From: Syntrophaceae bacterium | Lineage (GTDB): Bacteria > Desulfobacterota > Syntrophia > Syntrophales > Smithellaceae | Direction of reading: 5' to 3' | Length of the DNA: 64,000 nucleotides | Assembly: GCA_018056765.1 (NCBI GenBank) | Contig: JAGPFA010000004.1 | Span: 21,040 to 85,039 of the forward strand | Part shown: positions 3,141-61,070 of the stretch, piece by piece | How positions within the stretch are numbered: the stretch's first letter is position 1 | Layout of the letters: each line of letters begins with the position of its first letter | Made by a program: the position numbers and the translations under genes | The notes under the pieces: model-generated | Databases searched by the model: none | Seen by the model: the letters and a program-made list of their open reading frames with translations, nothing else | Told to the model about the DNA's origin: nothing

Positions 3141-3250
3141 TATATTATATACATTGACCATTCTTTCAGATCTGTTAAATCACGTTGCCAAATGTGATAG
3201 CTTTTGGTCGTGTACCAAAGGTGATATCCATCAAGTTGCAGGAGGTAAAG

Positions 3251-5044
3251 ATGTATAAGTTGGTACAGCCGGATAACGTTGTTGAGATACTGGAGAAAAG
3301 CGTCGCGAAATATCCTGAGAGGCTTTTCCTCGGAACAAAAAACAAACAGACCAAACAATACGAATGGATCAATTATGAGGATTTCGGGAGGCGCGTTGAC
3401 CATTTGAGAGGAGGTCTGAACCAACTGGGCATACAAAACGATGATGCGGTAGGAATCATCTGTAATAATACCACCGAATGGGCGATCTGCTTTTTTGCAA
3501 CCTGTGGGCTGGGGGCGCGGTTTGTCCCCATGTATGAAGCTGAACTCGTTCAGGTTTGGAAGTACATTATAAACGATGCCGCAGTAAAAGTTCTCTTCAT
3601 CAGTAAAAAATCCATCTATGACAAAATAAAAGACGATCTCAAAGCCATCCCCACTTTACAGAAAGTCATTATTCTGGAAGGCAACGGACCAGGCACGATG
3701 GCCGATCTGGAAGCGATAGGAAAGACAAAGCCGGTAAAAAGCATCTATCCGGATTATCGGCATGTCTGTGTGCTGATTTACACCTCGGGAACCACAGGTG
3801 ATCCGAAAGGCGTATTGCTCTCCCATGGAAATATCACCTCCAACGCGCACGCGGTGTCGCAATGTTTTCCGGACGTCAATCATAATGACTGCTCTTTGTC
3901 CATTCTTCCGTGGGCACATGTGTTCGGACTGGGCGAGCTGGTAGTTTACTGCCTGTTGGGCGGCTCTATGGGTCTTGCAGAAAGCGCGGCGACGATTGGA
4001 GAAGACATCATGCTGATCAAACCGACCTTTATGACTGCGGTGCCGCGGGTCTTCAATAAAATCTACGACGGCCTGTGGACCAAAATGAACGATGAAGGCG
4101 GACTGGCTAAAAAGCTGTTTGTCATGGGGGTGGAAAGCGCCAAGAAGAGATATGAGCTGGCGCAACAGGGAAAGTCAAGTTTTATGACGAACCTGAAATT
4201 CAAGATCGCCGATGCGGTGGTCTTTGAAAAAGTCAGGCAAAAGCTGGGCGGGCGTCTCAAGGGCGTGATGACCGGCAGTGCGGCGATGAACCCGGAAATA
4301 TCCCGTTTTTTCTGGGATATGGGCATACCGCTTTATGACGCTTACGGCCTGACGGAAACATCTCCCGGCGCAACGATGAACCGCCCGTCAAAATACCGAA
4401 TCGGCAGCGTCGGCCCCTTCATGGGCATGGCCTCCGTCGTTATTGACAAGTCAGTAGTCGGTCCGGATTCAGAAGATGGCGAAATCATCATTTACGGTCC
4501 CAATGTCATGCTGGGGTATCACAACAAACCGGAGGCCACTAAAGAAGTGATGACACCCGACGGCGGGTTCCGGTCAGGCGACCGCGGCAGGCTCGACAAA
4601 GACGGATTTTTGTATATTACCGGACGCCTCAAGGAACAGTTCAAGCTCGAAAACGGCAAATATGTGTTTCCGGCGGCAATTGAAGAAGACATCAAGCTCA
4701 ATCATTACGTGGAAAATGCCATGATCTATGGGGAAGGACGTGAATTCAACGTCTGTATTGTCATTCCCAATTTCACAGCTTTGGCAAAATGGGCGGAAAA
4801 AAACAATTTACCGGGGGATTCCAAGGAGCTGATCAAGAAACCGGAGACAAAAAAATTCCTCGAAAACGAAATTGTCAATCAATTAAAGGATGCCTTCGGC
4901 AGCTACGAAATCCCGAAAAAGTTTATCTTTATCGAGGAACCCTTCTCGCTGGAAAACGGAATGCTGACGCAAACCATGAAACTCAAGCGGCGCGCCGTTT
5001 TTGACAGGTATAAAGGCCTGATTGAAGCATCCTATAGTAAATAG
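3251..5044 (+). CDS. Long-chain-type acyl-CoA synthetase (AMP-forming)
   Basis: Activates a fatty or other carboxylic acid to its acyl-CoA via an acyl-adenylate (ANL superfamily). The 597-residue protein has the P-loop YTSGTTGDPKG, the GLTETSPGATMNRPSK adenylate-binding segment (A5 region) and the hinge RSGDRGRLDKDGFLYITGR followed by LKEQFKLENGKYV, typical of eukaryotic-like long-chain ligases. Start ATG 3251 is chosen because GGAGG lies at 3241-3245, 5 bases before it; an in-frame start at 3185 would bury that ribosome site. It stands alone, with no terminator found downstream. The chain-length preference cannot be read from the sequence. Confidence 0.94.
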   Translation: MYKLVQPDNVVEILEKSVAKYPERLFLGTKNKQTKQYEWINYEDFGRRVDHLRGGLNQLGIQNDDAVGIICNNTTEWAICFFATCGLGARFVPMYEAELVQVWKYIINDAAVKVLFISKKSIYDKIKDDLKAIPTLQKVIILEGNGPGTMADLEAIGKTKPVKSIYPDYRHVCVLIYTSGTTGDPKGVLLSHGNITSNAHAVSQCFPDVNHNDCSLSILPWAHVFGLGELVVYCLLGGSMGLAESAATIGEDIMLIKPTFMTAVPRVFNKIYDGLWTKMNDEGGLAKKLFVMGVESAKKRYELAQQGKSSFMTNLKFKIADAVVFEKVRQKLGGRLKGVMTGSAAMNPEISRFFWDMGIPLYDAYGLTETSPGATMNRPSKYRIGSVGPFMGMASVVIDKSVVGPDSEDGEIIIYGPNVMLGYHNKPEATKEVMTPDGGFRSGDRGRLDKDGFLYITGRLKEQFKLENGKYVFPAAIEEDIKLNHYVENAMIYGEGREFNVCIVIPNFTALAKWAEKNNLPGDSKELIKKPETKKFLENEIVNQLKDAFGSYEIPKKFIFIEEPFSLENGMLTQTMKLKRRAVFDRYKGLIEASYSK

Positions 5045-11853: not shown

Positions 11854-13086
11854 ATGGCCGGACAAACACTGAGCATTTATTATTATATAACCCTGTTTGC
11901 GTTTTATGGTTTCCTGGGGTGGGTCCTCGAAGTGGCGTATCGCTCCTTCACGCAGCGAAAGCCGGTCAACGCGGGATTCCTGCACGGACCCTTCGTTCCC
12001 ATTTACGGGTTCGCGGCTTTTCTCACTGTGGCTTTGCAGCAGGCCTTCCGGAGCTGGCATTTTGTGCCCGTGTATGTTTTATGCGGCCTGGCCATCACCG
12101 CCATGGAATATCTGGTGGGATTACTCACGGAAAAAATTTTCAAAATGAGACTGTGGGATTATTCCGAACGACGTTTCAACCTTCATGGATACGTTTGCCT
12201 GGAGTTTTCTGCTCTATGGACATTGCTGGTGCTGGTATTTGTTAAATTCATGCATCCGTTGGTGTTGCAACAAGCGGCCTTGTTCAATGAGCTTACGGTC
12301 AAGATAGCCGCCATCGTTTTCATGTTTTACTTCCTGGTTGATTTTTCTTTCTCCGTCATGTCCCTGGCAGCCTTCCGCCGGAGCGTTGCCTATCTATATG
12401 AACATTACTTCAATTTAAGCGGCGCGGAGATTCACGACAATATAAAATCATTCAGGCGCCTGCTGAGCGCTTTTCCCCACCTAAATAAGTATATTTTTCA
12501 AAGCATCAATAAAAGAGTCAAAATCAGGCTCAATTCCTTTTTAAAACAACTCAGGGATAAAATGATTCTGTCCATGGCGGGAAGAAAGCCTCTGGAAAAG
12601 GAATACTACGATATCGCCCGGGACATCATTGAGCACGATGAATTTTTGAGGCTCAGAGAGTACTTTCATCATAACTCCTCCATTTACGACCATGCCCTGA
12701 GCGTTGCCTATTTATCCTACAGTATTTGTAAATACTTAAAGCTGGATTTCCGCTCCGCCACCCGCGGCGCGCTGCTGCATGATTTTTTTCTCTATGACTG
12801 GCGCAACCACGACATTCCCGACCTGCCGCGTAACAAATTTCACGGGTTGGCGCATCCTTCCATCGCTCTGGCCAATGCCAGAAAGCTTTTTCCGCTAAAT
12901 GAGATTGAGGAGGATATCATCATTAAACACATGTGGCCGCTGACCCTTGTTCCGCCGAAATATAAGGAATCTTATATCGTTTCTTTTGCCGACAAATACC
13001 TGTCGTCCAAGGAATTTCTGATCGAATACAAAAAGAAAGTCGCCAGGCATAAGGTGAATAAAACCGGAAGGAAAAAAAATGTATGA
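11854..13086 (+). CDS. CmpB-type membrane domain fused to an HD phosphohydrolase-like domain
   Basis: A 410-residue fusion. Residues ~1-175 form 4-5 membrane helices of the 'putative ABC-transporter type IV' (PF06541/CmpB) family, recognisable from FYGFLGWVLEVAYRS and VNAGFLHGPFVPIYGF. Residues ~250-400 are an HD-superfamily domain with its metal ligands visible: YDHALSVA, LLHDFFLYD, GLAHPSIA, IIKHMWPL and SFADKYLS. HD proteins hydrolyse phosphoesters or nucleotides; the substrate here is unknown. The start has an in-frame stop just upstream and no clear Shine-Dalgarno. Its TGA overlaps the ATG of the next gene (ATGA), so translation is probably coupled to the acyl-CoA synthetase. Confidence 0.85.
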   Translation: MAGQTLSIYYYITLFAFYGFLGWVLEVAYRSFTQRKPVNAGFLHGPFVPIYGFAAFLTVALQQAFRSWHFVPVYVLCGLAITAMEYLVGLLTEKIFKMRLWDYSERRFNLHGYVCLEFSALWTLLVLVFVKFMHPLVLQQAALFNELTVKIAAIVFMFYFLVDFSFSVMSLAAFRRSVAYLYEHYFNLSGAEIHDNIKSFRRLLSAFPHLNKYIFQSINKRVKIRLNSFLKQLRDKMILSMAGRKPLEKEYYDIARDIIEHDEFLRLREYFHHNSSIYDHALSVAYLSYSICKYLKLDFRSATRGALLHDFFLYDWRNHDIPDLPRNKFHGLAHPSIALANARKLFPLNEIEEDIIIKHMWPLTLVPPKYKESYIVSFADKYLSSKEFLIEYKKKVARHKVNKTGRKKNV

Positions 13087-14690
13087 TCGACAAAAGCAAA
13101 CGTTTCATGCGCAAGTACGTCCCTTTGGAGGACCAGGAGACACTGAAGGGAAAAAGATTGGATTTTGACAGCGTTGCGGCAATGTTCCTCGACCGGGCGG
13201 GGATCACCCCCGATCGCCCGCTGGTTTATTATTATGATGACACAATAAGCTATGCCCGCGTCAACGACCGTGCCAATGCGGTCGCCGCTTTCCTTGAGGG
13301 AAAAGGAGTGAAAAAAGGAGACGTCGTCTCCATCATGATTTTAAATTCGCCCGAGATCTACTACACGATGTTCGGCGCGCAGAAGCTGGGCTGTGTTACC
13401 GGCTCCATCAATTACATGCTCAAAGGACCGGAGATCGCCTATGTACTTGAAGACTCCAGGCCGAAAGTGGTTTTCGTCGGGTCAGACTACATGGAGGAGT
13501 TTGCCAAGGGCTTTAACATGTCCGGGCACAAGCCGCTGGTCGTGGAAGCTCTGACGGATGTTGCTCATTCAGAAAAAATATCCGGGATTACACTTGGCGA
13601 GATTATTGAGACCTATCCCACCCGAGAGCGTCTGGTGAAACAGTCGCCCGATGACCCGACATTGCTTTTATATTCGTCCGGCACAACCGGCATGCCCAAA
13701 GGCATTTTACTTTCCAACCGCAACGAGCTTTGCATCTGCAAGGGCACGGCGGCATTCGGGACCTCCAGGCCCGATGATGTCTTTATGATCATTTTGCCGA
13801 TGTTTCATGTCAACCCTATTTGCGTCTGGACCTATCCGTGCATCTACCAGAATCTGAGCATCTGCATCCGCAGGACATTTTCACCGGCCGAATTCTGGCC
13901 CGCGCTCACCCGCTACGGGGTGACTACAGTGCAGGGGGTACCGGCCATCTATGCCTATGTTTACAGCAAGGCCGATCCGGCAACGATTGAATTCGACAAG
14001 CTCAGACTCAGGATGGCCTTTACCGGCGCGGCCCCGATGCCGGTGGAGCTGATTCACGGATTCAAGGACAAATATGGTGTCGAGGTCGTGGACGGCTACG
14101 GTCTTACCGAGGCCACAGGGGTATCCACAACCTCTACGGCCATCCCCCAGAATATCGGCTCCATCGGCATGGCTTTCCCCGGCCTGGAGGTGGAAATCAT
14201 GGATGAAGAAAACAACATTCTGCCCTACGGCGAGCGAGGCGAAATCTGCGTCAAGGGCGACGCGGTGATGCTCGGTTACCTGAACAAGCCCGAGGCGACG
14301 GCTGAAGCTATCAAAGACGGCTGGCTTCACACAGGTGACATGGGGCACATGGACGAGACAGGCTATGTGTACATCTCCGGCCGGAAAAAAGAAATGATCA
14401 ACCGGGGCGGAGAAAATATTTATCCACGCGAAATCGAGATGCCTCTGGAGAAGCACCCGAAAATTGCCGAAGTAGCGGTCATCGGCGCCCCTGATTCGCA
14501 GCTCGGGGAAAGAGTGCGCGCCTGTATCATTCTCAACGAGGGCTGCACGATGAGCGCAGACGAGGTCAAAGAATATCTGGCGGATAAAATTGCCAAATTC
14601 AAACTGCCGGAGCTGGTTGAGTTCATGACTGATTTTCCGCGTAACCCGACCGGCAAGATTTTGAAGCAGGAACTCAAAAAGAAATTCTGA
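13083..14690 (+). CDS. Acyl-CoA synthetase / fatty-acid-CoA ligase (AMP-forming)
   Basis: Class I adenylate-forming CoA ligase of 535 residues. Visible motifs: P-loop LLYSSGTTGMPKGILLSN, GYGLTEATGVSTT (A5), LHTGDMGHMDETGYVYISGR (A7), KKEMINRGGENIYPREIE (A8) and the catalytic-lysine end NPTGKILKQELKK (A10). The shape resembles medium/long-chain or crotonobetaine-type ligases (FadD/CaiC-like); the substrate is not readable. It overlaps the CmpB-HD gene by four bases. Directly downstream lies the decayed remnant of another synthetase, suggesting a former multi-ligase cluster. Confidence 0.94.
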   Translation: MIDKSKRFMRKYVPLEDQETLKGKRLDFDSVAAMFLDRAGITPDRPLVYYYDDTISYARVNDRANAVAAFLEGKGVKKGDVVSIMILNSPEIYYTMFGAQKLGCVTGSINYMLKGPEIAYVLEDSRPKVVFVGSDYMEEFAKGFNMSGHKPLVVEALTDVAHSEKISGITLGEIIETYPTRERLVKQSPDDPTLLLYSSGTTGMPKGILLSNRNELCICKGTAAFGTSRPDDVFMIILPMFHVNPICVWTYPCIYQNLSICIRRTFSPAEFWPALTRYGVTTVQGVPAIYAYVYSKADPATIEFDKLRLRMAFTGAAPMPVELIHGFKDKYGVEVVDGYGLTEATGVSTTSTAIPQNIGSIGMAFPGLEVEIMDEENNILPYGERGEICVKGDAVMLGYLNKPEATAEAIKDGWLHTGDMGHMDETGYVYISGRKKEMINRGGENIYPREIEMPLEKHPKIAEVAVIGAPDSQLGERVRACIILNEGCTMSADEVKEYLADKIAKFKLPELVEFMTDFPRNPTGKILKQELKKKF

Positions 14691-29264: not shown

Positions 29265-30587
29265 CTAATCACTCAAATACTTATTTCTGATGTAGTCGTT
29301 GTCTTTGCCGATTTCGCTCGCCACCCATTTGACACGAGGCGGCGTTTCGGACATTTTCACGAAATTGGCACTGATCGTGTATTTACCGAGCTTTTCATCT
29401 TCCACTTCCTGAAATGCTTTACGAATATGCCACTGTTTGTTTCCCATCGCTTCTTCCGGCGTCATGAGTTTCATGACAATCGGCACACCGCCGCCGCGCC
29501 ATTTCGACCGCGCCGATTTTCTGCTGTAACTGAGCGCCATCCTCACCAGCTCATCGGCTGTGTATTGCAGCGTCTTCTCCTCGATGATTCGGTGCAGATG
29601 AAGTGCCTGTTCGAGTATGTCCGGGATACGGTCCGATGAGTAGCGCCAGTCGTCTTCCTGCTCCCACAGCCCCAAAATCTTCAGCAGGGCGCGAAAATCG
29701 TGGTCCCGCGGTGCGGCAATCGCCACAAACCCATCTTTGCATTTCCAGTGCCCATAGGGATATAAGATAAAATCCAGAACTCCGATGCGCGGGCGAGCTT
29801 TTTCCCAGGTAAAACCGATTGTGGCCGGCATGCCGACCATAGAGGAATAGGCGTCCATCCCCGCAACGTCAACCATCTGACCCTCGCCGGTGTTCTGGCG
29901 GTGAATCAGGGCAACAGTACCACCAACAGCGGCGGAGAGTCCGGAGATATACCACCCGGCCCACATGCCGCCGCGCAGCGGCCAGCTGAAAGGTTCCGGG
30001 TCTTCTTCCGGCGCGCCCATCTGGGCGGGAAGGCCGGAACCGGCCTGCGAGGTGATATCCGTATCCGGCACCCGGGCGGCATCGCGGGCCTTGTCCGTAT
30101 ACTGGCCATAAGCGGAGAGCGCGATATAAATCAAGCCGGGATTGACCTGGCTCAACTGCCGGTAACCAATTCCCCAGTTGTCCATTTCTCCCGGCGTGAA
30201 ACTTTCAATCACCACCGCGGCCTTTTTCGCCAAGGCGGCAAATGTCTTTCTGTCTTCGGCACTGTTTTTAATATCGAGCGTCATATACCGCTTGTTGCGT
30301 CCTTCGAACATGAACGGAATGCCGACACCCTGCACCGTCACACCGAAGGGCGTTATCAGACGGGCTTCATCTCCCTCGGGCGGTTCAATCTTCACCACCT
30401 CTGCACCGAACTCGGCCAGGAAGCTGGCGCAGATAATGCCCGCGAAATTTGCGTAACTCGCGTCAAGAACGAGGATGTCGTCGAGAACTTCCGCTTTCCC
30501 CTCCGCGTTCATCATTTCGGCAAGTATTTTCCCACGATCGCCGCCTTTGCCTCCATGCCGGGTGTAGATTTCTTCCCTGCTGCTCAT
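29265..30587 (-). CDS. CaiB/BaiF family CoA-transferase (second of pair)
   Basis: Class III CoA-transferase of 440 residues, which moves CoA between carboxylates through an aspartyl-CoA thioester. Motifs: ILVLDASYANFAGIICASFL, GAEVVKIEPPEGDEAR, NKRYMTLDIKN and ESFTPGEMDNWGIGY. The catalytic Asp is probably the one in DTDITSQAGSG, aligned with the family's DLxxQAxSG. It starts at ATG 30587, overlapping the preceding transferase by four bases. Two unlike transferases in tandem often form a heteromer, as in benzylsuccinate or carnitine-type systems; here both keep an Asp, so this is open. Confidence 0.93.
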   Translation of the reverse strand: MSSREEIYTRHGGKGGDRGKILAEMMNAEGKAEVLDDILVLDASYANFAGIICASFLAEFGAEVVKIEPPEGDEARLITPFGVTVQGVGIPFMFEGRNKRYMTLDIKNSAEDRKTFAALAKKAAVVIESFTPGEMDNWGIGYRQLSQVNPGLIYIALSAYGQYTDKARDAARVPDTDITSQAGSGLPAQMGAPEEDPEPFSWPLRGGMWAGWYISGLSAAVGGTVALIHRQNTGEGQMVDVAGMDAYSSMVGMPATIGFTWEKARPRIGVLDFILYPYGHWKCKDGFVAIAAPRDHDFRALLKILGLWEQEDDWRYSSDRIPDILEQALHLHRIIEEKTLQYTADELVRMALSYSRKSARSKWRGGGVPIVMKLMTPEEAMGNKQWHIRKAFQEVEDEKLGKYTISANFVKMSETPPRVKWVASEIGKDNDYIRNKYLSD

Positions 30588-31945
30588 GAGTTTACCTCTT
30601 TTCCGTAGTTATAGATGGGGTCCTCAGCCAAATTGTAATAAACTGGCGGTTTCAGCCCCGGCCTGTCGTCGAAAGTTCCGATGACTTTTTTCTTCTCCAG
30701 TTCTTTGACTTCTTCTTCCGACAATCCGAGAAACTTTTTGAGCACGACGCGATTATGGTATCCCAGCGGCCGCGCCAGCCACTTGGTGCGTGACGGAGTG
30801 CCGGAAAGCTGCGCCGACGGCCCGGCGATTACCAAATCACCGTATACGTCGTCTTTGAACAAAACTACGCTGCCCCGCTTGCGACGCCACTCGTCATTAG
30901 CGATGGTGAAATCGTCTGCCACCACCGCCGCCGGAAAACCAGCCTCGTCGGCCAACCGGATGATTTCCTCTCCGGCTTTTGTCCTGACCCAATCGGCCGT
31001 AATTGCCGTGAGGGCTTTCGCGTTTTCCTGTTTCAGACGCTCCAATGTTTCGGAAAAACGCGGATCGGTGGCAAGTTCGGGCCGGCCTATTGCGGTGGCG
31101 AATTTTTGAAACTGTCCAGCAGTGGCGCAGGCTATTGCCAGATATTTGTCATCGGCCGTTTTGAAAATCGACGCGGGCATCATCGTCGGATCCGTATTAC
31201 CGGTACGGCCGATCGGCTCTTTGGTGACCGAATAGTAAGTGTAATGAAACAATGTGCGCATAAGTCCTTCGGTCTGCGCCATGTCTATGTATTGCCCCTT
31301 GCCGGTTTTCCGGCGGTGGTAAAGGGCCATGAGTACCGCCAGCGCGGCAAAGTTTCCAGGAACAAAGTCACCCACGTAATCAGGTAATTTGTAGAAAACA
31401 TCCGTATCTGGGTAGCCGTTTAAGGTCAGAACACCGCTTGCCGCCTGAGCCAGAAGGTCCCAGCCGGGAAAGTAGCGCATCGGGCCGAACTGCCCGTAAG
31501 TCGAGCAGGACAGAAAAATGATATTGGGATTGACCTCAGAAATTTTTTCATAACCGATCTGCCAGGCATCGGCCGTGCCGGGCGCGAAGTTTTCAATGAC
31601 GACATCCGACGTTTCCGCCATTTTGTAAATCAGTTCCTTCGACTGCCGAAGCGCCAGATTGACGGAGAGAAAATACTTGTTTTTGGTGATGTTGTGCCAG
31701 ATCGGGTTGGAGTGCTTCCAGTATTTCCCCCAGTAAGTGGCGGGACGCCACAGATCCCCGTAAAAAGGAAGCTCCAGCTTGATCACCTCCGCTCCGTAAT
31801 CAGCCAGCAGGCGTGCCGCGACGGGTCCGAAAATAACATGGGAAAAATCCATGACCCGGATGCCTTTTAGTGCCTCTGGTTTTTGGTGGGCGTCGCCGGG
31901 ATGGAAAAGTTCAGCCGTATAAGAAAAATAGTCTGCCATGGTCAT
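30584..31945 (-). CDS. CaiB/BaiF family CoA-transferase (first of pair)
   Basis: Class III CoA-transferase, 453 residues. Motifs: GIRVMDFSHVIFGPVAARLLADYGAEVIKLE, NKYFLSVNLALRQSKELI, IENFAPGTADAWQIGYEKI and the catalytic-Asp segment GWDLLAQAASG. GKGQYIDMAQTEGLM marks the central domain. It overlaps livF upstream (ATGA) and the second transferase downstream (ATGA), so it is translationally coupled within the transporter operon. The substrate is unknown; close linkage with an ABC importer suggests that imported acid is activated by CoA transfer on arrival. Confidence 0.94.
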   Translation of the reverse strand: MTMADYFSYTAELFHPGDAHQKPEALKGIRVMDFSHVIFGPVAARLLADYGAEVIKLELPFYGDLWRPATYWGKYWKHSNPIWHNITKNKYFLSVNLALRQSKELIYKMAETSDVVIENFAPGTADAWQIGYEKISEVNPNIIFLSCSTYGQFGPMRYFPGWDLLAQAASGVLTLNGYPDTDVFYKLPDYVGDFVPGNFAALAVLMALYHRRKTGKGQYIDMAQTEGLMRTLFHYTYYSVTKEPIGRTGNTDPTMMPASIFKTADDKYLAIACATAGQFQKFATAIGRPELATDPRFSETLERLKQENAKALTAITADWVRTKAGEEIIRLADEAGFPAAVVADDFTIANDEWRRKRGSVVLFKDDVYGDLVIAGPSAQLSGTPSRTKWLARPLGYHNRVVLKKFLGLSEEEVKELEKKKVIGTFDDRPGLKPPVYYNLAEDPIYNYGKEVNS

Positions 31946-54322: not shown

Positions 54323-55426
54323 TCAGGCACGAGGCGCATGGTCATTTCTTTCATGCCGGCGATAAAATTCCAGAATGAAAGAGGCAAGGATACGGCCTGC
54401 ATCGAAAAATATTTCGGCCGTCGCTTCGTCCAGAGGGGCAAGCGAGAATGAATCGCCGTGACTGAAGATAATTTTAGCCGCCTGTGCCGAACATTCATTT
54501 ATTTGTTTGGAGACGTCCGTTTCGCCGTTTTGGTCGATATGGCCGAATACCCCGATCAGCTCCTGGCCAAACTTTTCGATAATAAAATTAAAAATTGCAT
54601 TGAGCCTCTTTCTCGCACGCTGCAGATACGCCCTTAACTGCAACTCCGGGCCTGTCCCGTCCGACAAATAAGCTTGCGCGCCTGCCCGCAACGCCTCGTG
54701 GAAAAGGGGGAACTCTTCACGAAAACGCCGCTCAACATAAATTTCGTAGCCCTGATGGGCGGCGGAAATGATCCTGAACAATTCAGTGAAGGACAGAAAT
54801 TTCCTCAGACGCAAAGCCAGAGGGGCTGTTTTGACATGAAAGGGATTCCCCGCGTCCGCCAGATAATGTGTAGCTCGCGAAAGGTAGCGCCAGCCCCAGT
54901 AATCATTTCCCTGCGCAAAGGCCGCCCGGGCCAGGCGCGTGTTTTCACGCCAGGAATGCACAAGTGAACCAAAGGTAACTCCCGCAACTTTAAATTCCAT
55001 GTGTCGCCAGCCGTGCGACCCGCCGGTGATTTTCTGCCGTCTGTCCAGGGGCAGGTCGCAATCCAGAAGCAGGTCAGGTTCGGTGCTGTAGAGCAGCAGG
55101 ATTTTCCAGGGCTCGATGGACAGATCCAGAGGCGGTGAGGAACTGAATTTGCCGTTTCGCAGCTCGTAATCATAGGATTCAAAAGGGTTGAGCCCGCGGA
55201 CGATTTCAAATGATTCCTTATAAAAATCTATATGGCGCGGACCGGCCGCCCACGGGTCGTCTGCCGCGCGGGGATCCGGCAGCACCGGCACGGGCTTCAG
55301 ATCCATTATCGGGGGCAGCGCGTTTACAACATAATAATTGATGTACTCGTGTGAAAACCACGGCGCCCAGGCCGGGGATAGGCGCGGGTCTGTGTGGGGA
55401 TGGACATTCAATTGGCTTCTCTCCAT
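54323..55426 (-). CDS. Zinc-dependent phospholipase C / P1-nuclease-like protein
   Basis: A 367-residue member of the zinc-dependent phospholipase C superfamily. The zinc-ligand signature HYLADAGNPFH (HxxxDxxxPxH) is visible, plus GGSHGWRHMEF and VHSWRENTRLA. Start ATG 55426 (MERSQLNVHP) is chosen because the frame further upstream lies inside the RuBisCO-like gene. No signal peptide is clear, which is odd for a secreted lipase. It begins 40 bases after the RuBisCO-like gene on the same strand, with a strong hairpin in the gap, so it may belong to that operon. No ribosome site stands out. The substrate is unknown. Confidence 0.8.
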   Translation of the reverse strand: MERSQLNVHPHTDPRLSPAWAPWFSHEYINYYVVNALPPIMDLKPVPVLPDPRAADDPWAAGPRHIDFYKESFEIVRGLNPFESYDYELRNGKFSSSPPLDLSIEPWKILLLYSTEPDLLLDCDLPLDRRQKITGGSHGWRHMEFKVAGVTFGSLVHSWRENTRLARAAFAQGNDYWGWRYLSRATHYLADAGNPFHVKTAPLALRLRKFLSFTELFRIISAAHQGYEIYVERRFREEFPLFHEALRAGAQAYLSDGTGPELQLRAYLQRARKRLNAIFNFIIEKFGQELIGVFGHIDQNGETDVSKQINECSAQAAKIIFSHGDSFSLAPLDEATAEIFFDAGRILASFILEFYRRHERNDHAPRA

Positions 55427-55427
55427 C

Positions 55428-55459
55428 ACGGGCGGCCGCCGGCTAAGACGGCCGCCCGT
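55428..55459. repeat. 11-bp perfect hairpin between the RuBisCO-like and phospholipase-like genes
   Basis: ACGGGCGGCCG (55428-55438) and CGGCCGCCCGT (55449-55459) are exact reverse complements with a 10-base loop. It sits between the stop at 55467 and the ATG at 55426 and would overlap any ribosome site of the downstream gene. No T-run follows on the minus strand. Confidence 0.7.
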
Positions 55460-55466
55460 CTTCAGA

Positions 55467-56810
55467 CTATATTTTGAAATCTGTTTTCTTGCCCCAGACT
55501 CCCAAAACGATGCCCAGCTCCTCATGCTCTTTGGCATATTCCTCCAGGCGGATTCCCTTCATTGCCGCATCAATGGCCTGGCGCAGGGCGCGTGCGCCCG
55601 ACCTGGGGCCTTTGGGATGAGCGTGCACTCCACCTCCGGAGCCGATCATGATGTCTTTGCCCAGCGCATTGACAATGTCCTGCACGTTGTTGGGCGTGAT
55701 GCCACCCGACGGCATGGGCATGCAGGGCTTCAGGGAACCCATCGGGTAGGTCAGGTTCCGCGTGGTCGCCATGAAACGTTCATGCATGTACATGGCCTTG
55801 CCGCCCATCGAAAAAGGCAGGACAATGGAATCCGCCCCGCACAGACGCGCGATTTTTCCAAAAATCAGAGGGGATGAAATACCCTGATTCGGCGACATGT
55901 AATAGGCACCGGCCACGTCCATGTGGGCGAGAATCGGCACATTGATCGCCGGATCGTCGGCAAGAGCGCGCATCGCCTCCGGCCCGACCGCCAGGTAATT
56001 GACCATCAGGGCATTGGCGCCCGCGTCTATACAGCGCCTGGCCAGATCGAACATCCGCGGCAGGCGGTCGGTCACATTGACCGTATAGAGGGTGTGCTCG
56101 CCTGTCTCCTCGTAGACCTCCTTTTCTATCTTCATGTAGGTTTTTACCCTCTTGACCGCATCGTTGTAGCGCATGCTGGCGATCAACTCGTCATCCTTGA
56201 TGACGTCACAGCCGCCCAGGGCCGCCTCACGGAAAAGGGCCGCTCCGACCTCCAGCGGGTAACCGCTGCAGGGCTTGATCATGTTGTTGAGCAAGGGGCG
56301 GCCTTTGCGCAGTCCCAGGGCTTTCCACCAGCCGTCGGTACCGAACTTCGGCCCTTTGTATTCGTTTAATGTCATCTGCGGAAAGCGGATGTCCAAAAGC
56401 TTCAGATTCGGCACCATGGAAATATTGCCCACCAGCGCCGTCAGGATCATCGGAAACTGGTCCTCCACGTTCGCCGCGGGAAAGGCGATCTGGATGATAT
56501 AGGTGCGGCTGGTCGCGTCGGCCGGCACTGCGTATTCATAATAAGGGCACTCATACACACCGATTACCTTCGCCACGTGCCGGGCGCGTATCTCCGGTGT
56601 CTCTCCCGGTACGGGAGTCCACGTTCCGGTCGTCTGTTCGATAGCAATCACCTGCCCCATCACCGACGCATCAAACGCTTTGTCCATCTCCGCCCAGTAG
56701 GTGGCGATCAGATGGCTTTCCATGTCGATGCTTTCCGGTATGGAAATCGGCTTGTCCGCAAATTCATCGAAATCTTTTTTTATGCAAACCCGGGTTTTTG
56801 TCTTTTTCAT
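55467..56810 (-). CDS. RuBisCO-like protein (form IV type)
   Basis: A 447-residue RuBisCO large-subunit homologue. N-terminal landmarks TTGTWTPVPGE and Asn129 are kept. In the barrel, KPCSGYP (179-185) replaces the KPKxGL loop, so the second Lys is Cys181; GGCDVIKDDELI (199-210) keeps the carbamylated Lys205 and metal ligands Asp207/Glu208. The His294 equivalent is Asp298 (AHMDVAGA), the His327 equivalent is Val, while Lys338 (loop 6), SGG (368-370) and GGG (392-394) remain. By manual alignment it can bind Mg and an enolate but lacks residues for carboxylation of RuBP. AAGGAG precedes ATG 56810. Neighbours: class III PLP enzyme and FGGY kinase; no phosphoribulokinase. Confidence 0.93.
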   Translation of the reverse strand: MKKTKTRVCIKKDFDEFADKPISIPESIDMESHLIATYWAEMDKAFDASVMGQVIAIEQTTGTWTPVPGETPEIRARHVAKVIGVYECPYYEYAVPADATSRTYIIQIAFPAANVEDQFPMILTALVGNISMVPNLKLLDIRFPQMTLNEYKGPKFGTDGWWKALGLRKGRPLLNNMIKPCSGYPLEVGAALFREAALGGCDVIKDDELIASMRYNDAVKRVKTYMKIEKEVYEETGEHTLYTVNVTDRLPRMFDLARRCIDAGANALMVNYLAVGPEAMRALADDPAINVPILAHMDVAGAYYMSPNQGISSPLIFGKIARLCGADSIVLPFSMGGKAMYMHERFMATTRNLTYPMGSLKPCMPMPSGGITPNNVQDIVNALGKDIMIGSGGGVHAHPKGPRSGARALRQAIDAAMKGIRLEEYAKEHEELGIVLGVWGKKTDFKI

Positions 56811-56856
56811 GATTATCTCCTTATCTTGTTTAGGAATATGTGCAATTACATGCAGC

Positions 56857-58266
56857 TTAATTTTCGGGAATCAATGAAAGCAGGTATTCCCACACGCCAA
56901 GTGTCCTGTGCAGCGCCTCGTCATCATGCTGCATACAGGTATACATGCGGGTGCCGGCCAGCGAACACAGTCCATGGGCCATCGTCACCAACTGGTAGTC
57001 GTCGGCCACCTGCTTACGCGCCATAAGTTCAGTGAAGGCATCCGGTGCGTTTAGCTCCACAGAGAAAAAGGCGGTCGTAACATAGTGAATAATCGGACCG
57101 TAATTATAGACAAAGAATCCCAGATCCGGTCGTCTGGCAAACAAATCGTTCAGGGCCTTAGTAATTTTCTCGGCAAAAGCCGTTGCTTTGGCCACCGCGT
57201 CGTATTTCTCCATCAGCTTGAGAGCGTAATAGCACGCGGCCGTGGAAATTGGATTGGCGGCCAGCGTTCCGCCCATGAACACTTTGTCACCGAAACTGCC
57301 GGTACAGGCCTGCATCACTTCGCGGCGACCGGCAACCGCCCCGGATGAGGGAAAGCCATGGGTGATGATTTTCCCCAAAACGGTCAGATCCGGCATAATG
57401 TTGAAATATTTCTGCGCGCCGCCCATGCCGAGCCGGAAACCGGTGACCACTTCATCGAAGATGAGCAGCGACTCATAGCGGTCGCAAAGAGAGCGGATGG
57501 TTTTGTTCCACTGAGGATGAGCCGGATGAGTGCCGGACTCGCCTCCGACCGGTTCGACAATAACCGCCGCGATGCCGCCTTTGTCCTGATTGTTCTTAAA
57601 GGCTGCCTCCAGCGCCTCGAAATCATTGGGCGGCACATCGATGATGTGCTGAAAACATTCTTCGGGGATCCCTCTGGCCTCAAAATTATATGAACCGGGA
57701 ATATGTACCGAATACACCATCTGATCGGACCAGCCATGATAGCTGCCGCCTATCTTGATGATCTTTTGTTTTTTGGTAAAGCCGCGGGCGATGCGGATAG
57801 CCGCCATGTCCGCTTCGGTACCGGACTGTAAAAATCTGACCATCTCCACGGCCGGCATGTGTTTGATGATTTCCTCCGAGGCCAGAAGTTCATATTCCGA
57901 GGTCAGCCCCGTGGCCGGCCCTTTATCTCTGATAATTTCTATTATTTTTTCATTGAGCTCGTCAAAACCGTGACCGAGCATGATCGGTGCACCGCACATC
58001 AGGTAGTCCGTGTATTCGTTGCCGTCCGCGTCCCAGACTTTCCACCCCTTGCCTCTGTCCATGGTCAGAGGAAAAGGCTTGTTCTGACTCAGATTATGCT
58101 GTACGCCGCCGGGAATGAGGTTTTTCGCTTTTTCGAAAAGCTCCAGCGACCGTTTGTTACGCTGGTAGAACAGCTTGCGTTCCACCTCCAGTTTTTCGGC
58201 GGGAATCGGCCGCACCGGCCTGGACAGTATCTCTTTCTTCCTGCTTATAATTTCATCAAACTCCAT
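56857..58266 (-). CDS. Class III PLP aminotransferase / aminomutase (GSAM-like)
   Basis: A 469-residue PLP enzyme resembling glutamate-1-semialdehyde aminomutase. Visible: SGTEADMAAIRIAR (148-161), YHGW (176-179), Asp271 in LLIFDEVVTGFR, catalytic Lys299 in LGKIITHGFP, and FMGGTLAANPIS. Similar enzymes transaminate or shift amino groups on small amino-aldehydes, amino acids or amino-polyols. AAAGGAGG stands before ATG 58266. It lies between the kinase (31-base gap) and the RuBisCO-like gene (46-base gap), so it is part of that operon, and no heme-synthesis gene is nearby. The reaction is not identified. Confidence 0.92.
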   Translation of the reverse strand: MEFDEIISRKKEILSRPVRPIPAEKLEVERKLFYQRNKRSLELFEKAKNLIPGGVQHNLSQNKPFPLTMDRGKGWKVWDADGNEYTDYLMCGAPIMLGHGFDELNEKIIEIIRDKGPATGLTSEYELLASEEIIKHMPAVEMVRFLQSGTEADMAAIRIARGFTKKQKIIKIGGSYHGWSDQMVYSVHIPGSYNFEARGIPEECFQHIIDVPPNDFEALEAAFKNNQDKGGIAAVIVEPVGGESGTHPAHPQWNKTIRSLCDRYESLLIFDEVVTGFRLGMGGAQKYFNIMPDLTVLGKIITHGFPSSGAVAGRREVMQACTGSFGDKVFMGGTLAANPISTAACYYALKLMEKYDAVAKATAFAEKITKALNDLFARRPDLGFFVYNYGPIIHYVTTAFFSVELNAPDAFTELMARKQVADDYQLVTMAHGLCSLAGTRMYTCMQHDDEALHRTLGVWEYLLSLIPEN

Positions 58267-58297
58267 CGGAAAACCTCCTTTTTTGTTCGTCAAGCCT

Positions 58298-59908
58298 TCA
58301 GCGCAGAGGTGCGCAGACGCGCTCTGCATTATTTTTGTTGAGCCTGCGGCAGATTTTGTTGTGAACTTTATACAAATTCAGAAACTCGGCAAATATCTCC
58401 CGATAGATGCCGACCGCGGACTGGTTCGGCTGATACTGAGCTTTTACTTCGACAAGGTCAGGTATCTCCTCCTTCCTGATATACCCCAGCGCCACGGACG
58501 CCAGAAACGCGGCTCCGCGGCCGTTGGCGTGCATCGGACCGGCAAGCTGACGTATCGGCACTTCCAGCACATCCGCCAGAATCTGCGACCAGACATCGGA
58601 GTTGGCCCCGCCGCCGATAAAGTTGAGGAAGGAAAACCTGCGCCCCATGAATTTCTCCAGATATTTGAGCAACCACTTCTGATTGAAGGCCACTCCTTCG
58701 AAGATGGCCCTGGCCATATCCTCTCTGGTATTTTCCAAAGACAGGTTGAAAAGTGATGAACGGATATGGCAATCGTCCACCGGCGCCCTTTCTCCATAAA
58801 GCCAGGGGGTGAAAATGACGCGGTTTGCCCCGGGCGGCACACGGGAAACGGTTTTGTCCAGATACTTGAAAATATCCGGGACATTGCCCTCCATCAGCAG
58901 CTCATCCTTGTTATACAGAACATTATCCTTGAGCCAGGTCAGGCATTTCCCTGCACACTCCTGCTCGTTGAGAATCATATACAGGCCGGGCAACGGACTG
59001 GGGAAAGAACCGATACCGTGAAACGGGTCGGTTTTTTTAAACGGCACATGCGCCGAAATCCATGAGGAGGTGCCGATATAAATATGGCCCTCAAAATCCC
59101 TGACCGCTCCCGAGCCGACGCAGGCGGAATGAACATCGGGCGTGCCGCCAATCACCGGCGTGTCCGGATTGAGCCCGAGTGTGTCGGCAACTTCTTTTTT
59201 CAGCGGCCCCAGAATATCGACCGCACGAATCAAATCCGGCAGCTTTTCCCGCTCCAGGCCGGCCAGCTTCAGCAGCTTTTCACTGTAAACCACTTTCGAC
59301 AGGTCGCGATTATCCGTCACCCAATGCAACAAAATGGAATCGCCGGTAGCCGCGATTTTACCGGTCAGCCTTAAATTTATATAATCCTTTGGTTCAAGAA
59401 ACTTGTAAGTTCTTTTATAAATATCGGAGCAGTCTTTTTTCAGCCAGAGGATGTGGGATACGGAATCCTTTCCCGAAAGCGACGGCCCTCCCCCCGAAAT
59501 CTTGAGCCACTTAAGCAATTTGAGAGGAGGATAACCGCCTACCTTGATCGGAGAATTAAAAATATGATCCATCGCGTCATGCCCGCGGCAGTCCATCCAG
59601 ATAATGGCGTTCATCAGAGGATCGCCTGCTTCGTCCACGGCAACCGTGCCGGACCACTGCGTCGTGACACTCACAGCCACGATGTCGTCGGCAGGAACAA
59701 GCTTTTTGGCCAAAAGCTTTTGTGCCGCGCTAATGATGGCATTCCACCAGCCGGCCGGATCCTGCTCCGCCCCTCCGCCAGCATGCAAAATGACCGGCGT
59801 GGGATGAAATTCACTGTCAGCGACCTTTCCATATACGGAAATAAGCGCCACCTTGGGCCCTGACGTGCCCAGATCAATGGTCAGAATGTACTTGTCTGCG
59901 GCAGGCAT
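58298..59908 (-). CDS. FGGY-family carbohydrate kinase
   Basis: A 536-residue ATP-dependent sugar/polyol kinase of the xylulokinase-like group. N-terminal DLGTSG (12-17) phosphate-binding loop, TTQWSG (82-87), catalytic Asp258 in GGTPDVHSACVG, and ATP-site GTSSWISAH (279-287). The C-terminal lobe contains FIGGGANSDVWSQILADVL. AAAGGAG precedes ATG 59908. It heads a minus-strand operon with a class III PLP enzyme and a RuBisCO-like protein and is divergent from an AraC-type gene. It would produce the phosphorylated substrate for the operon; the natural sugar or sugar acid is not known. Confidence 0.93.
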   Translation of the reverse strand: MPAADKYILTIDLGTSGPKVALISVYGKVADSEFHPTPVILHAGGGAEQDPAGWWNAIISAAQKLLAKKLVPADDIVAVSVTTQWSGTVAVDEAGDPLMNAIIWMDCRGHDAMDHIFNSPIKVGGYPPLKLLKWLKISGGGPSLSGKDSVSHILWLKKDCSDIYKRTYKFLEPKDYINLRLTGKIAATGDSILLHWVTDNRDLSKVVYSEKLLKLAGLEREKLPDLIRAVDILGPLKKEVADTLGLNPDTPVIGGTPDVHSACVGSGAVRDFEGHIYIGTSSWISAHVPFKKTDPFHGIGSFPSPLPGLYMILNEQECAGKCLTWLKDNVLYNKDELLMEGNVPDIFKYLDKTVSRVPPGANRVIFTPWLYGERAPVDDCHIRSSLFNLSLENTREDMARAIFEGVAFNQKWLLKYLEKFMGRRFSFLNFIGGGANSDVWSQILADVLEVPIRQLAGPMHANGRGAAFLASVALGYIRKEEIPDLVEVKAQYQPNQSAVGIYREIFAEFLNLYKVHNKICRRLNKNNAERVCAPLR

Positions 59909-59932
59909 TTTCCATACTCCTTTAAGTTTGCT

Positions 59933-60000
59933 ATAGTATGTAACAAAAGAAAAATAAAAAACATTACAGGTGTGGCCAAAAATATGATAAATGTGGTCAA
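59933..60000 (-). promoter_or_regulatory. AraC-type direct-repeat site upstream of the kinase operon
   Basis: TGTGGCCAA (59971-59979) and TGTGGTCAA (59992-60000) are direct repeats 21 bases apart, two helical turns, as typical of AraC-family dimers. A candidate minus-strand -10, TACTAT, lies at 59938-59933 with a poor -35, so activation is plausible. GGCCAAA (59974-59980) and TTTGGCC (60003-60009) also form an inverted repeat. Confidence 0.6.
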
Positions 60001-60038
60001 TGTTTGGCCTCGTATATTATAAAGAGTGATTACTTTTA

Positions 60039-61070
60039 ATGGAAGAGGTTAAATTGAGCGAAAAAAAAATCCCTTCATACAGCGCCAAATGGCTGGTGAG
60101 TCGTCTGGAAGCACAGGGAATCCCGTCTGAACAGATTCTTGCCGGAACGAACCTCTCCAGGGCCTGGCTAAATGACGGCGAGGCCCTCATCTCGCCCGGG
60201 CAGTATCTCACCATCGTCGGCAACGCGCTGGATAAAAGCGGACAGCCGTCACTTGGCCTTCAGATAGGAAGGCAGCACAACCTGGCACAGTTGGGTATCT
60301 GGGGATACGCAATTATCAGCAGCCCCACACTGGACGAGGCCAACCGGGTCGCCATACAATACTGGGAATTAAGCGGTTCGCTCGTCACCCTCTCGTACCG
60401 CAAAGAGAGAAGCTGCTCTTTGTGGGGAATAAAACCGGCCTTCCCCATGAACAATCTTCGCTCGTGGATTTTCGCTGTGGAAGAGCTCCTTTCCACTTTT
60501 TATTCCGGCGCTGTTTTTCTCTCGAAGGAGCATTTTCAAATCGAGAGTATCGACCTGTCCTATCCCAAGCCTGCGCACTGGCGGCTCTACACAGAGATCT
60601 TCGACTGTCCGGTACGCTTCAACCGTCGTGTGGATGAATTTCAAACGACCTTTGATTTCGAACAAAGCCCCACCTCCATGGGGAATCCCGCCCTGGCAGA
60701 AATCTGCCGCGAGCAGTGCCGCCGGTTGATGGCGAAACTGAAATCTTACGACGAATTGATCGAAGCAATACGCAATCTGCTGATTACTTCCGCGGGAAAC
60801 TTCCCGCGCCTGCCGGCCGTTGCCGCACAAATGGCCATGAGTCCGCGGACATTACGCCGGCGTCTGGAGGAGCGCAACACCACCTATCAGAAAATCATGG
60901 ATGAAATCAGGGCAGAGTTGGGAAAAGAGTATATCGTCTCCACAAACCTGAGCGTCGAACAGATGGCCGGACGTCTGGGCTTTTCCGAGGCGGCGGCCCT
61001 GCGCCGGGCGTTCAAAAAATGGACCGGGGTCAATATCGCCCAATTCCGGAGAAATAAATACTCACAATAA
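60039..61070 (+). CDS. AraC-family regulator (arabinose-binding-like N-terminus)
   Basis: A 343-residue AraC regulator. The N-terminal ~200 residues resemble the AraC-type 'arabinose-binding domain' (PF12625) of OruR/ArgR-like proteins. The C-terminal double HTH spans ~245-343: LPAVAAQMAMSPRTLRRRLEE and VEQMAGRLGFSEAAALRRAFKKW. It is divergent from the FGGY kinase/PLP/RuBisCO-like operon and is the likely activator. Start is ATG 60039 without a ribosome site; a TTG at 60054, preceded by AGAGG, is an alternative. Confidence 0.92.
   Translation: MEEVKLSEKKIPSYSAKWLVSRLEAQGIPSEQILAGTNLSRAWLNDGEALISPGQYLTIVGNALDKSGQPSLGLQIGRQHNLAQLGIWGYAIISSPTLDEANRVAIQYWELSGSLVTLSYRKERSCSLWGIKPAFPMNNLRSWIFAVEELLSTFYSGAVFLSKEHFQIESIDLSYPKPAHWRLYTEIFDCPVRFNRRVDEFQTTFDFEQSPTSMGNPALAEICREQCRRLMAKLKSYDELIEAIRNLLITSAGNFPRLPAVAAQMAMSPRTLRRRLEERNTTYQKIMDEIRAELGKEYIVSTNLSVEQMAGRLGFSEAAALRRAFKKWTGVNIAQFRRNKYSQ

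Follow-up and report, generated by a model that had tools for sequence, protein, structure and literature searches.

The 64,000-nucleotide stretch of a Syntrophaceae genome analyzed here (the window) carries an operon for an FGGY-family kinase, a class III pyridoxal phosphate (PLP) enzyme, and a RuBisCO-like protein (RLP), a conserved RLP system with a coherent and testable assignment to sphingoid-base catabolism. The system itself is a real finding; its assignment to a sphingoid pathway is moderately supported, and we infer all substrates and reactions from the gene set, its conservation, active-site residues, and neighboring genes. We rate it rather probable that the pathway handles sphingoid bases or closely related lipid amino-alcohols, and evenly balanced that it serves the catabolism of sphingoid long-chain bases from ceramides by the three steps proposed below. 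To our knowledge, no RLP pathway matches this gene combination, as an earlier note drawn from the letters of the window had already remarked, and a literature search covering few subscription papers found none joining an RLP with FGGY kinases, Smithella, or sphingolipid degradation.

A scan of genome contigs revealed 26 loci encoding RLP relatives, supplemented by further loci from relatives of the window genome. The kinase, PLP enzyme, and RLP genes follow one another in identical order in 21 distinct loci from Syntrophales, other delta-type lineages, and Spirochaetes (L002–L015, L017, L058, L139, L140, L141, L142, and the window); because of this shared order, the gene set is far from chance. 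The earlier note had treated the three genes as one functional unit and named their lack of co-conservation elsewhere as grounds for abandoning it; the order kept in 21 loci upholds the unit. The RLPs of these sets are 76–87% identical to the window RLP, and a phospholipase-C (PLC)-like gene comes after the RLP gene in most of the loci. In the tree, the RLPs of two Spirochaete genomes nest within those of Syntrophales, which suggests that the gene set moved between lineages by transfer.

The RLP clade (support 99/99) branches on the MtnW side; OiaX-type RLPs and RuBisCO forms I–III fall elsewhere in the tree. Scoring of active-site columns over 33 distinct clade members revealed E60, T65, W66, N123, K175, K201, D203, E204, H294, S379, G380, G381, G403, and G404 as invariant or nearly so. 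E60, N123, K175, K201, D203, E204, and H294, together with a loop-6 lysine, occur in 33/33, and this includes the Mg-carbamate site of RuBisCO (K201-D203-E204) plus K175. The loop-6 lysine (K338 of the window RLP, in a GGK motif) shares a column with its counterpart in archaeal and OiaX sequences; relative to forms I/II, it falls on K334 in a 40-sequence alignment and is shifted by one residue through an indel in another. The second-phosphate side is altered, with T173 replaced by Met, K177 by Cys, H292 by Leu, R295 by Met (31 members) or Gln (2 members), H298 mostly by Ala, and H327 by Val or Ala. R295 and H327 bind the second phosphate of ribulose 1,5-bisphosphate (RuBP). H294, R295, H327, and K334 are key substrate-binding residues of RuBisCO (PMC8698309). 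Since R295, H327, and K177 are replaced, the window RLP, judged by its residues, is not a RuBP carboxylase.

Nor is it an MtnW or an OiaX. The enolase of 2,3-diketo-5-methylthiopentyl 1-phosphate (DK-MTP), MtnW, is its best NCBIfam model, at 328 and 280 bits against cut-offs of 409 and 513. The catalytic base of this enzyme in G. kaustophilus is Lys98, which aligns (structure 2oek) with an Asn of the window RLP that is Asn in 33/33 clade members. The scores and this replacement rule out MtnW, and with it the possibility, raised earlier as one that would undo the assignment, that the RLP is a standard DK-MTP enolase; OiaX is ruled out by a score of 174 bits against a cut-off of 700. No Mtn or other salvage genes were recognized beside the set in the loci examined. 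With first-phosphate and catalytic residues kept and a non-polar distal side, the substrate most likely combines a RuBP-like head (C1-phosphate, C2-keto, C3-hydroxy) with a non-polar tail, that is, probably one phosphate and a greasy tail, the length of which is not readable from the residues because the distal site of MtnW is also non-polar.

The window kinase scores under every NCBIfam FGGY cut-off, reaching no known subfamily, and conserves a catalytic-type aspartate (D258). A kinase search across the phylum, combined with the earlier loci and including PLP-RLP sets as a subset only, gave 57 kinases, partnered by a saccharopine-dehydrogenase-like protein (19), PLP enzyme and RLP (14), sphingosine-1-phosphate (S1P) lyase (10), RLP without PLP enzyme (4), PLP enzyme and aldolase (3), PLP enzyme alone (2), aldolase alone (1), a glycerol-3-phosphate-dehydrogenase-like protein (1), or none of these (3). 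The ten lyase-adjoining loci come from eight genomes, an adjacency with a chance probability of ~3e-17 under a crude model. Compared with StSPL, the Symbiobacterium lyase of solved structure, two of the kinase-paired lyases reach 630 and 660 bits, and Spirochaete locus L012 has a kinase-lyase pair immediately upstream of a TetR-kinase-PLP-RLP set. Because S1P lyase requires a 2-amino-1,3-diol phosphorylated at C1, the simplest product for the adjoining kinase is that compound.

The 19 loci pairing a saccharopine-dehydrogenase-like gene with an FGGY kinase (L147–L151, L153–L155, L157–L165, L167, and L084) span the phylum and one Spirochaete; their kinases fall in one clade, and the two genes probably constitute a widespread amine-catabolic pair. 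More distant FGGY kinases (31–35%) adjoin a glycerol-3-phosphate-dehydrogenase-like gene at L087 2467-9734 and L025 10453-13773, the former pair also adjoining a radical-SAM activase-like gene and a large open reading frame (ORF).

The PLP enzyme matches Aminotran_3 at 187 bits and belongs to the class III aminotransferase fold family, with an invariant PLP lysine, K299, in the motif VLGKIITHG. The NCBIfam GSAM models are its best, at 312 and 303 bits against cut-offs of 398 and 527, leaving the C-terminal part unaligned, and the structure of FumI (6hbs) is a distant match (E 7e-25). FumI, a class III transaminase, takes the C2 amine off a sphinganine analogue (PMC9858248). In the RLP loci L050 and L143, the PLP gene is replaced by a saccharopine-dehydrogenase-like gene, the product of which has saccharopine and carboxyspermidine dehydrogenases as nearest solved relatives, a swap expected for an amine-removal step. 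An AF2 model of the PLP enzyme (pLDDT 44) was not used.

Further evidence comes from neighbors of the set in relatives, the ceramidase and S1P lyase links lying there and not beside the window operon. Neutral ceramidase, found in 15/155 genomes of the order, is encoded in the operon neighborhood of L002 and L003 (the latter region re-read as L178), full-length and with both ceramidase domains; a third, in L086, adjoins kinase, aldolase, PLP, and MFS genes without an RLP. Ceramidase and RLP co-occur in the order above expectation (6/22 versus 9/133, Fisher p 0.009, uncorrected for kinship). D-aminoacylase-type amidohydrolases adjoin the set in L005, L010, and L175, acyl-CoA-ligase-like genes lie near the kinases of L139 and L159, and a FadL-type porin gene lies near L142. 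Together with S1P lyase, these neighbors point to a lipid amino-diol. The view that the kinase and PLP enzyme feed a phosphorylated keto compound to the RLP is plausible, as first suggested, whereas the keto-acid or keto-polyol then envisaged fits neither the non-polar distal pocket nor these neighbors. An Exo_endo_phos gene of L175 was considered as a sphingomyelinase and dropped, having no PDB match. Other parts of the window genome encode a class II aldolase and an S1P-lyase relative that is more distant.

In the proposed pathway, the FGGY kinase would phosphorylate the sphingoid base at C1, and the class III PLP enzyme (in some genomes, the saccharopine-dehydrogenase-like enzyme) would then remove the C2 amine, yielding a 1-phospho-2-keto-3-hydroxyalkane, CH2OP-CO-CHOH-R, which corresponds to the C1–C3 unit of RuBP extended by an alkyl tail. 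Natural sphinganine and D-ribulose both have the R configuration at C3, and the head group therefore agrees with that of RuBP in type and in stereochemistry. The RLP would enolize this keto phosphate at C3; that it acts on the deaminated phosphate at all seems to us an evenly poised question. As the most likely continuation, C2 would be carboxylated and the C2–C3 bond split to give 3-phosphoglycerate and a fatty acid, palmitate (C16) in the case of C18 sphinganine; alternatively, the RLP would isomerize the keto phosphate to a 2-hydroxy-3-ketone. Retention of E60, N123, K175, and the loop-6 lysine favors carboxylating cleavage over isomerization, and the loss of K177 and the placement on the MtnW side urge caution. 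We regard carboxylating cleavage as the RLP reaction as tentative, and the complete RuBisCO-type conversion of CO2 and deaminated sphingoid-1-phosphate to 3-phosphoglycerate and fatty acid as slightly more doubtful still. The amine-removing enzyme and RLP would take the place of S1P lyase in RLP loci. The FucA-like aldolase is ruled out as the enzyme splitting deaminated sphinganine and any other base that lacks a C4 hydroxyl, the group that a retro-aldol reaction needs; such a cleavage would fit only bases of the phytosphingosine type. Nor is the aldolase specific to the set, being present in RLP-less genomes as well.

In two genomes (L009 1177-4715 and L025 1898-5616), GAPDH-PGK-TIM genes and a flavodoxin-like gene stand immediately upstream of the set, an arrangement that may suit a 3-phosphoglycerate or dihydroxyacetone phosphate (DHAP) product or may be due to chance.

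Several observations weigh against the sphingoid assignment. The lyase-paired kinases are just 36–56% identical to the window kinase, the commonest kinase partner, the saccharopine-dehydrogenase-like protein, is without a proven substrate, and we know of no lipid-acting FGGY kinase. The PLP enzyme is closer to GSAM than to FumI. Ceramidase adjoins the set in three loci only; the ceramidase scan detected none in the window genome, and an amidohydrolase of the L005 type was not found there either, so this organism would need free bases or another amidase. The non-polar distal pocket also fits small tails such as methylthio, K177 is replaced by Cys, and the clade sits on the MtnW side of the tree. 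A rival reading keeps the sphingoid pathway and makes the RLP an isomerase or enolase only, like MtnW or the R. rubrum RLP, moving the carbonyl from C2 to C3 for another enzyme to cleave. Both the family model and the tree give an enolase as the nearest characterized relative of the RLP, K177 and the ligands of the second phosphate have gone as in MtnW, and non-carboxylating RLPs are common; E60, N123, and the loop-6 lysine are, however, kept in 33/33 members and lost in the MtnW compared, and the set conserves no thiolase-type enzyme or other evident candidate for the cleavage. We regard this reading as fairly unlikely.

More improbable is a small amino-polyol or deoxy-amino sugar as substrate, with the transaminase and FGGY kinase making a ketose-1-phosphate that the RLP isomerizes and the FucA-like aldolase splits into DHAP and an aldehyde. 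FGGY kinases usually act on sugars, an MFS transporter is present, and the aldolase lies near many RLP sets and within the kinase-PLP-aldolase operons L086, L174, and L176; the S1P lyase and ceramidase partners, the non-polar distal residues, and the aldolase of RLP-less genomes argue the other way. Methylthioadenosine or 5-deoxyadenosine salvage, in which the RLP would be a variant methionine-salvage enolase or isomerase acting on a 5-deoxypentulose-1-phosphate, would account for the best NCBIfam model, for two genes found elsewhere in the genome, one for a class II aldolase and one, divided between two contigs, for an MtnA-like isomerase, and for the likeness to a Bacillus-type salvage locus, which likewise combines an RLP with a kinase and an aminotransferase. 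The sub-threshold model score, the Asn at the Lys98 position throughout the clade, a kinase of the FGGY family instead of MtnK, and the lack of recognized salvage genes beside the set in the loci examined make salvage highly improbable.

The operon layout is summarized in the table below. An ORF check reproduced the positions first reported for all five genes and the gaps of 31 (kinase-PLP) and 46 bases (PLP-RLP), both exact, and Pfam domains agree with the family labels given to the kinase, PLP enzyme, RLP, and AraC regulator. Good Shine-Dalgarno sequences precede the kinase, PLP, and RLP starts; the PLP ORF is open from 58329, and its start at 58266 is fixed by the Shine-Dalgarno sequence and relatives. 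A 130-base gap separates the kinase from the divergent AraC gene. The genome measures 2.5 Mb and holds a single RLP copy.

Table. Genes of the window operon, its divergent regulator, and RLP active-site residues.
Feature	Position	Strand	Basis
FGGY-family kinase, first gene, proposed sphingoid-base (long-chain-base) 1-kinase	58298-59908	(-)	FGGY_N/FGGY_C
Class III PLP enzyme, GSAM-like, proposed C2-amine transaminase	56857-58266	(-)	Aminotran_3; K299 invariant
RuBisCO-like protein (RLP), separate form IV clade	55467-56810	(-)	RuBisCO_large N and C domains, tree, active-site columns
RLP K205-D-D207-E208 (KDDE), carbamate/Mg site, RuBisCO K201-E204	56187-56198	(-)	33/33
RLP K338, loop 6 (GGK), probable RuBisCO K334 equivalent	55797-55799	(-)	33/33
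RLP H296-M297, RuBisCO H294 (kept) and R295 (second-phosphate ligand, replaced by Met)	55920-55925	(-)	H 33/33; M 31, Q 2
Zinc-phospholipase-C-like protein, fourth gene	54323-55426 (ATG) or 54323-55411 (TTG)	(-)	Invariant H/D/E residues, weak structural match
AraC-family regulator, divergent from operon	60039-61070	(+)	Arabinose_bd and HTH_18 (Pfam)

The earlier note placed the operon under this AraC regulator; such control is not general, since most Smithellaceae relatives have TetR in place of AraC. AraC relatives (56–63%) adjoin the operons of L014 and L139–L142, loci of another lineage. The window kinase groups with these AraC-type loci (L139, L140, L014, L141, and L142) and the window RLP with Smithella L002; from these differing groupings, the window operon looks mosaic. 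Common flanking genes encode an MFS transporter, a TetR regulator, a FucA-like class II aldolase, and a probable outer-membrane barrel, and a conserved protein of L002 (11462-12910) reads as a signal-peptide-bearing outer-membrane barrel. Two ORFs without assignment (L025 13655-15559 and L091 9805-11166) were dropped as apparent antisense artefacts.

The PLC-like protein has no Pfam, NCBIfam, or PDB sequence match and no evident signal peptide. Its relatives share invariant H/D/E residues, including HYLADxGxPFH, and its AF2 model (pLDDT 73) finds zinc phospholipases C as best structural matches, at E values of at least 0.065 and low TM-scores, a weak resemblance to that family. The gene may be dispensable, as it is broken into two overlapping ORFs in L004 (5149-6077) and absent from several RLP sets (L015, L058, L139, and L140).

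Other RLP loci vary the theme. At L025 5735-7724, the RLP lacks its customary kinase and PLP partners; next to it are an SCP2 lipid-carrier-like protein and a PLP enzyme (28%). Diverged RLPs (~61%) at L053 6241-10100 and L054 162-3958 lie between an FGGY kinase of the FGGY_C_2 subfamily and a histidine-phosphatase gene, without a PLP gene. FGGY kinase and RLP come together a second time, without relation to the present set, on a plasmid of Natronococcus sp. CG52 (L101 1300-6188), where a haloarchaeal RLP of the OiaX-side clade has an FGGY kinase, an oxidoreductase, and a class II fructose-bisphosphate aldolase gene as neighbors. Organic-acid or fatty-acid catabolism is suggested within the window (3185-5044, 13083-14690, and 29265-31945) by two genes for AMP-binding, acyl-CoA-ligase-like proteins and by paired class III CoA-transferases beside a periplasmic-binding-protein gene.

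If the assignment is correct, this RLP clade would gain a substrate class, and with it a reaction that resembles RuBisCO's own and can be put to the test; should the RLP also carboxylate its substrate, it would be a RuBisCO-superfamily enzyme acting in this way on something other than RuBP, in an anaerobic sphingolipid degradation begun by an FGGY long-chain-base kinase. Having retained the first-phosphate site and lost the second, the clade would provide naturally occurring changes for asking what carboxylation requires, and the pathway would offer a route to sphingolipid use by anaerobes of digesters and sediments. Pairing with S1P lyase predicts a bacterial family of FGGY sphingoid-base kinases; we know of no bacterial enzyme for this step. 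Our search found breakdown of a sphingolipid backbone described for no RuBisCO relative.

Compared with known systems, the window RLP resembles MtnW (form IV-YkrW) in its best family model and best PDB sequence matches and shares its KDDE metal site, first-phosphate glycines, and non-polar distal site; it differs in having Asn for Lys98, in keeping E60 and the loop-6 lysine, and in its FGGY kinase and class III PLP enzyme partners, with no salvage genes recognized beside them in the loci examined. With RuBisCO forms I–III it has in common E60, T65, W66, N123, K175, K201, D203, E204, H294, the loop-6 lysine, S379–G381, and G403–G404, whereas K177, H292, R295, H298, and H327 are lost and a phosphoribulokinase-type context is absent. 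OiaX and other RLPs beside DUF1537 kinases (isoapionate pathway) likewise pair an RLP with a kinase and keep the loop-6 lysine, but they form another clade, retain R295, and use a kinase of another family. FumI of hydrolyzed-fumonisin degradation parallels the window PLP enzyme as a class III PLP enzyme taking the C2 amine off a sphinganine analogue, yet it is distant in sequence from the window enzyme, whose closer likeness is to GSAM and whose substrate would be a phosphorylated base. The S1P lyase route, too, acts on a 1-phosphorylated base, with a related FGGY kinase beside the lyase in ten loci; the RLP operon, in contrast, has no lyase and contains an amine-removing enzyme and RLP instead.

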